From NCBI RefSeq assembly GCF_007744675.1, contig NZ_CP036269.1:1999501-2063500 (forward strand): a stretch of 64,000 nucleotides of DNA, in the 5' to 3' direction. Below are positions 52,915-58,403 of the stretch, one piece after another. Position 1 is the stretch's first letter. Every line of letters begins with the position of its first letter. The notes under the pieces were generated by a model. The model had not been told where the DNA came from. It did not search any database and saw only the letters and a program-made list of their open reading frames with translations. Both the position numbers and the translations under genes were made by a program. Source of the stretch: Gimesia alba (GTDB taxonomy: Bacteria > Planctomycetota > Planctomycetia > Planctomycetales > Planctomycetaceae).

Positions 52915-53014
52915 TAATGTGGGAATCGGTGGCTGTTTTAGCACTGTCGGGCAAGCCGACAGTGGCACTCGGTGAGTCGATAAGCATAGTTTTTAAGCTG
53001 GTTTTATACGAAAA

Positions 53015-53093
53015 GTGAGCGGAATGGCGCTAGCCACCGTTTTTGAAGCAGCGACCCTGAGCCCAAAACGGCGGCTAGCGCCGACCCGCTCAC
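53015..53093. repeat. 79-bp near-perfect palindromic repeat unit
   Basis: Nested arms pair across a roughly 20-base loop: GTGAGCGG (53015-53022) with CCGCTCAC (53086-53093), GGCGCTAGCC (53026-53035) with GGCTAGCGCC (53073-53082), and CCGTTTT (53037-53043) with AAAACGG (53065-53071). It lies 100 bases after the FAD gene. The stem is long and GC-rich with no U-tract, so it looks more like a dispersed REP-type element than a standard terminator. I found no second copy in this window. Confidence 0.7.
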
Positions 53094-54037: not shown

Positions 54038-54378
54038 CTTCTTGATTCATCGAGATCATCGGGTGGTACCGGATGCAATCCGGTATTGCCGCAGTCAACA
54101 GGAAGTGGAGGTGTTTACGATGTGTGGAGAGTGGCTGTGCCTCATACTGTCTGATTCAGAATGGTTGGCAGCACTGCTGTGCATTGTCTGATTGAGCAGC
54201 GACCTCCTGCTCGCTGCGCTCGGCCCGAATTGCATTCGGGCTTACCCGCTACGAGTGGTTTTCAGAAAGGGCGTGTCTTTGCTATTGCGTTCTATTATAA
54301 TAGCACAAGATACTCGTCTTTTACTGATTACAGGTCGTCAGACTATGCTCGATCATATCGTTCTCCTTGAGGTGATTG
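54038..54378. other. Intergenic region containing repeat copy A
   Basis: 341 bases between the esterase and the LRR gene. More than half is the 187-bp REP-like element. The rest (54248-54378) is an AT-rich leader of the LRR gene with GAGGTGA just before its ATG. Confidence 0.55.
54061..54247. repeat. REP-like 187-bp repeat, copy A
   Basis: Starts GGGTGGTA then hairpin CCGGATGCAATCCGG (54069-54083), and ends with hairpin CCCGAATTGCATTCGGG (54224-54240) then CTTACCC. Read inward, both ends are GGGT-n-GGTA-like tetranucleotide plus a 6-7 bp stem with a GCA or TGC loop, i.e. an inverted REP pair. Copy B at 58023 has the same length and ends. The ends are best conserved and the centre diverges. 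Confidence 0.8.
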
Positions 54379-55482
54379 ATGAAAAAGCCAATCAAGAATA
54401 AATATGTTGTGGGGCAGGAATACTATGATGTGGAGACTTGGAATGCTTCCTTCGAGGTGAAAAAGTATATTTACGAAGGGGTAGTGGCTTCAGACTGCTC
54501 TACTGCGAAATGCGAAAAACTGCTGCATCAATTTCGACCGGCCGAGTATCCCGACGCCGAATCGGTACCCGATGAGCTTTGGATTCACTATTGGGTGAAG
54601 GATATCCTGGATGGGCCTTTAACGAACCTGGAGCGGCGCAAAGCGGTCATGTCCCAACAGGCAATTGATGAAAAAAGCAAACATCTGCCCGTTGTAACGG
54701 AGCTGGATGATTTGCATGTCAGCACCGAAATTACTCCCAGTGGTTCACTGGAATATTGCGAATTGGATCACAGAGGGGACCTGGAAGCGGCCTTGAATCG
54801 CCAGGATCCGATCTGTTTATTATTTAAGTATGAACCGACGATCGAAGATCTGGAGTTGGTTGCTCAGTTTTCTCAGAATCTGGGAATCTATTTTGGTTAC
54901 AACGCGGCGCCGAAGTTTGTGGAAACTCTGGAGCCGTTGTCAGAGAAAGAAAATTTGAAGTCACTTTGTATATCGCAGTTCCCTCGCCCGGAAAGTACTT
55001 TCCTGGAGATGCTGGAAACGTTTTCGGGTTTGCAAGTTCTCAATCTGTTCTATTCCAGGATCTCTGATCAGATTGGGGGCTGTCTGATTGAACTGGATGA
55101 TCTACACTTTCTGGATCTGACCTATACGAAAATTACGGACTGGGTGCAGTATGATCTTGCAGGTCTTTCCAAAATGGACAGACTCACTCTGGATCAAACA
55201 CGGATCACGGATGATTTCTTTCGGATGGAAGATCTCTGGCCACAATTGGACTCTTTGAGTCTGAAGGGAACCCGACTCACGGATCAGGGGGTGACTTTGC
55301 TGAGGCAGTTTACTACTTTGCAAGACTTAAGTTTGGACGGGACGGACATTACGGATGCGGCGATACCGTACCTGACTCAGATGAAGAATCTAAAAAACCT
55401 GTCTGTCGAAAAAACCGCGATCACGATCCGGGGCGCTCGCGAACTGATTGAATCGATGGAAAACTCCTGGGTCCGGTGTTGA
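54379..55482 (+). CDS. Leucine-rich-repeat protein, cytoplasmic, unknown function
   Basis: 367 residues from the ATG at 54379 (GAGGTGA upstream). The first 140 residues are acidic and of unknown fold. The C-terminal half carries about six bacterial LRR units of the type DLHFLDLTYTKITD, MDRLTLDQTRITD, LDSLSLKGTRLTDQG, LQDLSLDGTDITDAA and LKNLSVEKTAITIRG, each with LxxLxLxxTxI/LTD spacing. No signal peptide or membrane segment. It is flanked by the REP-like element on the left and the SGNH gene on the right. Possible role in protein-protein recognition; nothing more can be said. Confidence 0.8.
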   Translation: MKKPIKNKYVVGQEYYDVETWNASFEVKKYIYEGVVASDCSTAKCEKLLHQFRPAEYPDAESVPDELWIHYWVKDILDGPLTNLERRKAVMSQQAIDEKSKHLPVVTELDDLHVSTEITPSGSLEYCELDHRGDLEAALNRQDPICLLFKYEPTIEDLELVAQFSQNLGIYFGYNAAPKFVETLEPLSEKENLKSLCISQFPRPESTFLEMLETFSGLQVLNLFYSRISDQIGGCLIELDDLHFLDLTYTKITDWVQYDLAGLSKMDRLTLDQTRITDDFFRMEDLWPQLDSLSLKGTRLTDQGVTLLRQFTTLQDLSLDGTDITDAAIPYLTQMKNLKNLSVEKTAITIRGARELIESMENSWVRC

Positions 55483-55628
55483 AGAACAAGTCTCATAAAA
55501 AACTTCCTCTTCATTTTTCACTTATTCTGCACAACTGATTTTGAGTTCGAAACCGAGATTGGTGTAAGATAGGAGAAGTATACCTGATTCTCTCTTTTGA
55601 ATTTGAGCCTCCGACCTGATTTCTGCTT

Positions 55629-57944
55629 GTGAGCCCCGCCGTGAAAAAAATCGTTCCCTTGTTCCTGTTTGTTGTTCTCTGTTCCCTGTTGTCTGCTGTC
55701 GTTGCTGAGGAAATGCCGCGGGAGCAGAATCTGTTGCAGAATCCGGAATTTCGATTGCGGAAAACGGCTGTAGCGGAGTCCGGCCGATCGATTCTCTGCT
55801 GGAATACGGATCACTATGGTGATGTGAGTGCGGGAGCGGAAAATGAGAAACTGAAAATTAAACCGTCGACGAAAGCGGTTGCGATTGAGCCGGGCAAGCG
55901 GTTCTGGCAGTTTGCGACGCTACCTGAACTGAAGTTGGCGGCCGGCGATGTCGTCAGTCTGTCGGTCAACGGGTATCAGGAAACCAGTGGCGCACTCAAA
56001 GCACGGCTCTGTCTGATGCTGGTTGAAAGTGCCGACGGTGAGTGGTCACCGGCGGACTTTGGTCTGTCAGACAAACGGACGTTTGCGAAACATGGGCGAG
56101 GCGAATTGATTCGGGCACCGCAGCTGGAAACATCATCGGAGCAGGCAGGGCAGGAATTTATACTGCAATTTTCCGGTCTCAAAGTTGATCCACGGTTTGA
56201 ACATCAACGCGCGTCGAATGCAGCGTTTCGGAATGTGGTGGGAGTGCTGGTCGAATTTGTGAATGACTCCGACAAACGAGTCTGGATTCATTCGCCCACG
56301 CTGATCAAAGGGGACAAGGCAGTAACGGAAACGGTTTCCTCGCGTGCCCTGCCGGACCTGTATCGACGGATTCCGCGGACGATGGAGAAACTGACCAGCG
56401 GAAAGCCGGTAACAATTCTAACACTCGGTTCCAGTATCGATCGCGGCAGTGCGAACCCGCGACTCTATTTTTATGACGAAGACCCCACCAGCCCGGACTT
56501 TAAAGAGCCTTTGACCGACGCGCGGCCACGAAAGCCGGCAGCTTTGAAACAGCTGCTGTTCGAACGCATGCAGCGGCCCGATCTGCAGGATTACGTCGGC
56601 TGGTCGCAACACTATTTCATGTATACCGGACGCATGCGGCGGGAGTTGCTGCGGAAGTTCAATTATCCGGTCGAGAAGATTCTGCTCAACGTGATGGCCT
56701 GCGATGGTTCGTCGATTGGCGAATCTCACAGCGGCTTTCTTGAATATGCGTCGCTGGAACAGTCGCCCGATCCTGGTAATAACGGTCATCCCGCCGGCAA
56801 GACGTGGCAGGAACTGTATCCAGCATTGTTTGAAAACGGAAAGAAGCCGGGACCGGATCTGGTGATCTTCGGGCACGGGCATAACGAGCATATTGACCGT
56901 CCCGATGAAATCGCCGCCTATGAAGGAGCCGTCCGCTGGTTTCAGCGGCACTATCCCGGCGTGGAATTTGTTTCGTGCATGTGGATTCGTGATAAAGGGC
57001 AGCCGAATTCAATGACCGAACCGATGCAGCAACTCTGCGCGCATTACGGAATTCCCTTTGTCGATCTGGGGCAGTTGTTGACGGATCTGAAGACAACCTG
57101 CAATCAGTACGCGCTGGCCCCCGATGGTGGGCACCCGGGAGCCGCCAGTCATTATCTGTGGTTCAAACAGTTGGAGCAGATCTTCGAAATGCCTGAGAAT
57201 CCACAGCCGGGAATCCCGCAACGACAGTTGCCCGCGCGGATGAATGATTATGCTGCGAACTGGGAAGGAGAAATGACCCGCTTCGACGTTGACAGTCCGC
57301 GGATTGTGGACGGACGGATGATGATTCTGGAAGAGGCGGCTTTCAATCTCTGGGCAGATAACAAACGGGAAATGATGCAGTTACAGATCGATGGTCAGCC
57401 GGCACAACATGCGGGACATGGGCGAAGCAGTTTCACACGTCCCAATCCACGGAATTCCACATTCGTGCATGGGCGGCTGTCGCGCGGGGATCGTCACATT
57501 ATTGAAATTCCCAACACGAGCGCGCGGCTCACGACGGTCGATTGTAAAGTGGGATTGAACCGCCGGTTCTATGGCGTTGACGCGAAAGGCTGGCGTGGGA
57601 CGTCTGCCGTGAAGACTTTCAAGTCGATGTGGGGCACTCCCTATGGAGAGCAGGCGTTTTACCTGACGCCGGGCGAAGCGATTGAAATTGAAGTCGAGGC
57701 GACCGATGTGTCAATCGCCTGGCTGGATCGTGTTGAAGGGGGCACGCTGGTGACTGAAGTCGACGGGAAAACGGTCTGGTCACAACCGACCAGCGAACCG
57801 TTTATGGATTCACAGGGACGGAAACATTTCATCGAGAACCGCCGCGGCGTAACGGGGCTACCGTTTGGTAAATATCGGATCAAATTGCAGGCACAGGAAA
57901 AACCGGTTTGGGTGCTGGGTGTGTTTGGTTATGACGAGCGGTAG
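55629..57944 (+). CDS. Large secreted SGNH/GDSL-type hydrolase
   Basis: 771 residues from a GTG at 55629. Another GTG four codons on gives an equally good signal peptide, and neither has a strong ribosome site. The signal ends near VVAEE. A beta-rich N-terminal domain (about 30-240) is followed by an SGNH core: block I TILTLGSSIDRGS (Ser near 267, GSS replacing GDS), block III FGHGHNEH near 412, and block V PDGGHPGAASH near 497 with Asp and His. A C-terminal beta domain (about 550-771) could bind carbohydrate. SGNH enzymes remove acyl groups, so deacetylation of a polysaccharide is likely (inference). It lies between the LRR gene and repeat copy B. Confidence 0.82.
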   Translation: MSPAVKKIVPLFLFVVLCSLLSAVVAEEMPREQNLLQNPEFRLRKTAVAESGRSILCWNTDHYGDVSAGAENEKLKIKPSTKAVAIEPGKRFWQFATLPELKLAAGDVVSLSVNGYQETSGALKARLCLMLVESADGEWSPADFGLSDKRTFAKHGRGELIRAPQLETSSEQAGQEFILQFSGLKVDPRFEHQRASNAAFRNVVGVLVEFVNDSDKRVWIHSPTLIKGDKAVTETVSSRALPDLYRRIPRTMEKLTSGKPVTILTLGSSIDRGSANPRLYFYDEDPTSPDFKEPLTDARPRKPAALKQLLFERMQRPDLQDYVGWSQHYFMYTGRMRRELLRKFNYPVEKILLNVMACDGSSIGESHSGFLEYASLEQSPDPGNNGHPAGKTWQELYPALFENGKKPGPDLVIFGHGHNEHIDRPDEIAAYEGAVRWFQRHYPGVEFVSCMWIRDKGQPNSMTEPMQQLCAHYGIPFVDLGQLLTDLKTTCNQYALAPDGGHPGAASHYLWFKQLEQIFEMPENPQPGIPQRQLPARMNDYAANWEGEMTRFDVDSPRIVDGRMMILEEAAFNLWADNKREMMQLQIDGQPAQHAGHGRSSFTRPNPRNSTFVHGRLSRGDRHIIEIPNTSARLTTVDCKVGLNRRFYGVDAKGWRGTSAVKTFKSMWGTPYGEQAFYLTPGEAIEIEVEATDVSIAWLDRVEGGTLVTEVDGKTVWSQPTSEPFMDSQGRKHFIENRRGVTGLPFGKYRIKLQAQEKPVWVLGVFGYDER

Positions 57945-58403
57945 GCGGACTGCGAAAGACTCGAAATGATTTCTACCACGAAAAGCACGAACATTTTCTG
58001 GCAGGAGTGCTGGACAGAAAAAGGGTGGTACCGGATGCAATCCGGTATTGCCGCAGGCAACAGGAGGTGGCTGGGTAAACGGTGCTTTGTGAGCCAGTAT
58101 GCCTTTTGATGACTGATTCAATCCGATTGGTGGCTCTGCTGTGAATTGTCTGCTTGAGCTGTGACCTCCTGCTCGCTTCGCTCGGCCCGAATTGCATTCG
58201 GGCTTACCCTTACCTGACGGATAAGTTGTTTGTATATATTGTGATGCGTCAATGTGAGTCTAATTCAATCCTGTTCTTTTTCGGCTGGAAATTATCTTTT
58301 TCAAAAATTCTGCGTTAGATTAGAGCCAGTTGATCTAAATAACTGATACGGAGCGTTGTTTTGATTGGATGTCGCCTTCACTTGCGCAGGAGAGGTTTCC
58401 GTT
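57945..58403. other. Intergenic region with repeat copy B and sigma-gene leader
   Basis: 459 bases. 58023-58209 is the second REP-like element. 58210-58403 is an AT-rich leader of the ECF sigma gene with a short TTAGAT/ATCTAA inverted pair near 58320. No gene. Confidence 0.55.
58023..58209. repeat. REP-like 187-bp repeat, copy B
   Basis: Same orientation, length and ends as copy A: GGGTGGTA, hairpin CCGGATGCAATCCGG (58031-58045), and terminal hairpin CCCGAATTGCATTCGGG (58186-58202) followed by CTTACCC. Also shared with copy A are ATTGCCGCAG, GACCTCCTGCTCGCT and GCTCGGCCCG. Roughly half of the middle differs. Confidence 0.8.

Follow-up and report, generated by a model that had tools for sequence, protein, structure and literature searches.

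A 187-bp REPIN-type repeat of Gimesia alba and its probable tyrosine transposase

The window, a stretch of 64,000 nucleotides from the 7.77 Mb single-contig genome of Gimesia alba, carries two 187-bp repeats in direct orientation on the forward strand. Copy A (54061–54247) lies in the gap between an esterase-type gene and an LRR-type gene (54376–55482, forward strand, 368 residues), and copy B (58023–58209) lies in the gap between an SGNH/GDSL-type gene (55629–57944, forward strand, 771 residues, with a Pfam match below the cut-off) and a sigma-factor-type gene. The LRR and SGNH genes, which are the only two genes in the 3.8 kb between the copies, lie outside the element. The copies are 81% identical overall, with the first 34 and the last 31 bases the same in both, and each of the end patterns has two matches in the window and none in shuffles. 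The sequence-only reading of this DNA, which described two direct copies of identical length and ends around exactly two genes, was correct on these points. The window also contains, at 53015–53093, a 79-bp inverted repeat with 29-nt arms (GTGAGCGGAATGGCGCTAGCCACCGTTTT) of another dispersed-looking family. In G016, the nearest relative, the site that matches an element of the G. alba genome at 1781450 is filled by a sequence (GGCGCTAG) resembling this inverted repeat.

Each copy is made up of two unlike REPs in inverted orientation. In copy A the left REP (54061–54106, forward strand) consists of GGGTGG, an 8-bp hairpin with a GCA loop (hairpin 1), a second hairpin (TTGCC/GTCAA, with one mismatch) and CAGGAAGT, and the right REP (54202–54247, reverse strand) consists of GGGTAA, the hairpin GCCCGAAT-GCA-ATTCGGGC, CGAGCGCAGCGAG and CAGGAGGT. 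The left REP of copy B (58023–58068, forward strand) has an intact hairpin 2 (TTGCC-GCA-GGCAA), and its inverted right REP occupies 58164–58209 on the reverse strand. The terminal hairpins of the copies are TACCGGAT-GCA-ATCCGGTA on the left and GCCCGAAT-TGC-ATTCGGGC on the right. The GCA/TGC loops had been read correctly from the outset, but the tetranucleotide beside the hairpin, described then as GGTA-like, is GTGG at the left end and, in the inward reading, GTAA at the other.

The same architecture is found in 66 element pairs from ten genomes, all 66 of which combine one left REP with one inverted right REP, with no same-type pairs; their lengths are mostly 175–196 bp. The left end runs in the order GGGTGG, hairpin 1, hairpin 2 (TTGCC-GCA-GGCAA or TTGTC-GACAA forms) and CAGGAGGT, and in the right end, going inward, the same foot is followed by a hairpin, CGAGCGCAGCGAG and CAGGAGGT. 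The foot is GTGG or a near variant (GTAG, GTGA, and GTAA at many right ends) followed by an 8-bp stem. The CAGGAGGT tracts of the left and right REPs pair with one another, and the inner stem exists in two forms, GGAGGTYGCAG and GGAAACTGTCAG, with both arms switching jointly. In an alignment of 42 copies that was not fitted to the structure, the structure itself having been taken from one of them, the fraction of paired cells is 95.7% (28–50% in slid controls) and the stems contain 136 two-sided changes, compared with 45 in shuffles and 8–27 when slid. Such compensatory changes point to selection on, or renewal of, the element ends.

The element is a multicopy family. A BLAST search with the element gives 45 matches genome-wide, the terminal-hairpin pattern gives 41 compared with 0 for its reversed control, and profile searches together with selected genome stretches give about 52 copies, a list that may be incomplete and that comprises 21 full elements (one of them, 343 bp long, doubtful) and 31 single or partial ends. 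None of the roughly 52 copies overlaps a called gene. The gaps that hold them are convergent in 26 cases, co-directional in 17 and divergent in five, compared with 10/68/22 for element-free gaps; the over-representation ratio is approximate, as gene calling relied on a simple script based on codon usage and the background gaps were drawn from the same stretches, but the contrast of 26 to 5 is independent of that background. The highest identity of any other copy in the genome to copy B is 81%, so recent movement is not indicated in G. alba. A different intergenic repeat of about 95 bp, unrelated to the 187-bp element and without a significant Rfam match, lies at about 7293124–7293219 (L127:7325-7420) and has dozens of copies at 85–89% in G014 and G016.

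A gene for a REP-associated tyrosine transposase (RAYT) of 171 residues is located at 1759899–1760414, 294 kb from the window repeats. Its product matches the curated model NF047646 at 113 bits (cut-off 80), contains the motifs HUH (DHVH), WQ and YMHMNP, and shows distant protein similarity to TnpAREP (PDB id: 4er8, E 1e-5). With an HUH motif, a Y---NP motif and the curated match, it belongs to the TnpAREP class (class 2 of PMC6006769); in a comparison of motifs alone, the triplet of its clade (DHVH, WQ, YMH[ML]NP) is identical to none of the triplets given there for subclasses 2.1–2.8. Copies of the element, 189 bp long and in direct orientation, lie on both sides of the gene (1759654–1759842 and 1760425–1760613). 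The link to a RAYT proposed from the sequence is thereby borne out, both by the genome-wide number of intergenic copies and by the presence of the same element on either side of a RAYT gene. At the two other RAYT loci examined closely, 6383608 and 2879562, the gene has a different palindrome, of the CACTGTCGGGCAAGCCGACAGTGGCAC type, on its flanks, and each repeat family therefore seems to own a transposase, as in P. fluorescens (PMC3116915). One copy of this second REP family (CACTGTCGGGCAAGCCGACAGTGGCAC) is found in the window itself, at 52942–52968. A different Y1-type transposase gene, also of 171 residues, lies at 2918876 (L038) and adjoins repeats of a third kind (GTAGGGGCAGGC... / ...GGTTGCCCCTACG). 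The window copies were very probably spread by the RAYT at 1759899–1760414; the copies that flank this gene have a stem subtype unlike that of the window copies, so its cognacy for the latter is something we infer.

Comparison of orthologous sites shows how the element and its neighbours have fared in the genus. Of 17 congeneric genomes, 13 have the SGNH gene at this locus, with or without elements, and the LRR gene occurs in only two genomes (G. alba and G005). In the gap between the SGNH and sigma-factor genes, elements are present in G014, G008, G010, G013 and G005. G016, which is 94% identical to G. alba at the SGNH gene and has no cognate RAYT, retains a degraded remnant there, with the left end deleted, the right end mutated and the spacer 84% alike. 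Between copies A and B, likeness is 96% over the left 46 bases, 98% over the right 46 and 66% in the middle. The sequence-only reading had noted conserved ends and a diverged middle, but its explanation by ageing fails, as ageing alone would not give this pattern: the G016 site decayed at the ends while the spacer stayed alike. The conserved ends point to selection or renewal instead. Most G016 copies at the sites compared are absent or damaged, an element remnant is kept next to the former RAYT site, and none of these sites proved to be a clean empty one with exact boundaries.

Orthologues of the RAYT with 70–73% identity occupy the corresponding locus in G001, G005 and G010, in the last as two frame-shifted pieces, and each is flanked by its own element subtype. 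In G008 the RAYT lies beyond the response-regulator and purA genes relative to the other genomes, again between element copies; four copies are found immediately upstream of it (L098, G008 C1 1679000-1688000). RAYT presence is a poor predictor of copy number: G009, G012, G013 and G014 have 55–128 ends each and no close orthologue. Sites switch between element subtypes among genomes. Two adjacent gaps of G014 hold elements whose spacers are 93% alike, whereas at one of these gaps G008 has the other subtype (41%). This implies replacement or copying and hence that these sites were renewed, the signs of turnover being indirect and read from sequence. Horizontal spread might seem to explain why G014/G008 and G005/G009 have near-identical copies at shared sites, but the flanks are equally similar and vertical descent suffices. 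Only in the G008/G012 pair is a copy at one site 97% alike next to flanking genes that are about 84% alike.

The original interpretation of the two window copies as delimiters of a mobile two-gene unit does not hold. That two direct copies enclose exactly two genes would suit such a composite, as would the G005 locus L090:9143-10850, where the LRR gene alone lies between two direct copies with an identical 12-base left flank. The bracketed content thus differs between G005 and G. alba, however, and the SGNH gene keeps its neighbours at one locus in relatives whether or not elements are present; the bracketed genes do not move or go missing together. With a conserved SGNH locus and an accessory LRR gene, the bracketing of the two is incidental, and joint carriage is highly improbable. 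The common 12-base flank in G005 suggests local duplication or recombination between copies, and recombination between copies may at most have gained or lost the LRR gene. A miniature element of a conventional DDE transposon is also extremely improbable: the termini are inverted (GGGTGG/CCACCC), as this origin would require, but the hairpins are subterminal, no target-site duplication is evident in the 66 listed flanks and the transposase gene associated with the element is of the Y1/HUH type.

A more substantial alternative, although an unlikely one, is that the elements now serve the host mainly as RNA structures that end transcription or protect mRNA at the 3′ ends of genes, selected as RNA and linked to the RAYT by history only. 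The strong bias to convergent gaps would agree with this, but it is also expected if insertions into genes and promoters are purged, and it is normal for REPs according to the text of PMC3733652. Strong covariation of the stems, the RNA fold of copy B (z −4.3), the persistence of copies in genomes with no close RAYT orthologue and the 97% likeness of the single G008/G012 copy also speak for a role as RNA; against it are the change of subtype at individual sites, the loss of or damage to most compared copies in a relative as near as G016 and the lack of any Rfam match in the window. The element instead has the combined features of REPINs and BIMEs, namely a palindrome with a foot, multiple intergenic copies, inverted REPs at a kept distance and REPs that flank a RAYT gene. 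It is therefore with high confidence that we regard the window repeats as REPINs (inverted REP doublets, BIMEs), non-coding and non-autonomous elements whose probable mobiliser is a REP-associated HUH/tyrosine transposase. Copies A and B sit in adjacent gaps as independent passengers and do not represent the two ends of a single transposon.

By analogy with studied RAYTs, which cleave next to REPs under the guidance of the tetranucleotide (in one system GTGG directs cutting at CC; PMC8266576), the REPIN might move as follows. When the region is single-stranded, the enzyme, probably the RAYT encoded at 1759899–1760414, would recognise each terminal hairpin with its GTGG/GTAA foot, and its tyrosine would cut beside them. 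The excised strand would then be rejoined at another place with no target-site duplication, which fits the flanks listed above. Copies would afterwards be mainly vertically inherited, would build up in intergenic gaps, most often between convergent genes, and would decay into single ends. We infer movement from the comparison of genomes, in which no insertion or excision event was seen.

RAYTs about 50% identical to this one are found in many genera of the class. A layout pattern (GGGT[AG][AG], hairpin, second hairpin, A[AG]G[ACG][AG] tail) searched over 600 bp on each side of the gene, or the whole locus if short, is present at 21 of 26 RAYT loci outside the genus, where shuffles predict 0.45, and at none of eight non-cognate tyrosine-transposase loci; the pattern was composed with examples already in view, which makes the test non-blind, but the excess over expectation is large. 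Despite this common layout, the REP stem sequences are unrelated between genera. In G129 the pattern identifies three 153-bp units, two of which flank the RAYT, and one single end; it was not found in five other genomes. The double-hairpin REP may be a lineage-specific, possibly new variant, as judged against the text of PMC3733652, which gives its consensus sequences in figures. A broader proposal, which we put forward tentatively and at slightly less than an even chance, is that these ends form an undescribed Planctomycetota class of REPs, with GGGT[AG]G, a main hairpin that drifts freely in sequence between genera, a second short hairpin, CARGARG and a distinct RAYT clade (DHVH/WQ/YMHxNP) whose transposase conserves layout and not stem sequence; on this proposal the RAYT would recognise the two hairpins and the tail together.

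REPs and tyrosine transposase genes have already been reported from Planctomycetes (PMC6006769 and the text of PMC3733652), so the element itself belongs to a known kind; a literature search for the 187-bp repeat in Gimesia found no report. What it offers is a clean pair of REPIN and RAYT from a phylum that has seen little study of such systems. Orthologous sites in 17 congeneric genomes, together with genomes from which the RAYT has gone and one in which it is broken, allow tests of persistence, turnover and decay, and the layout common to several genera would make it possible to ask which features of a REP a RAYT reads, given that the stem sequence can change freely.

Three known systems are close parallels. 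The REPINs of P. fluorescens SBW25 (PMC3116915) are also extragenic inverted REP doublets, show compensatory changes, have a spacer that is less conserved but kept in length, cluster at a RAYT gene and fall into several REP types with a separate RAYT for each. Unlike them, the Gimesia unit is about 185 bp long, has far fewer copies (about 52), carries two stem-loops in the left REP and always joins REPs of different type. According to the text of PMC3733652, the GTAG-tagged REP dimers, including those of Planctomycetes such as R. baltica, are usually head-to-head heterodimers in convergent or co-directional gaps, as in Gimesia. The Gimesia element shares with the BIMEs and the TnpAREP REPtron of E. 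coli (PMC8266576) the inverse pairing of unlike REPs, the tetranucleotide foot and a single repeat-flanked RAYT gene, but its foot is mostly GTGG or GTAA, not GTAG, and its main stem is perfect, not bulged.
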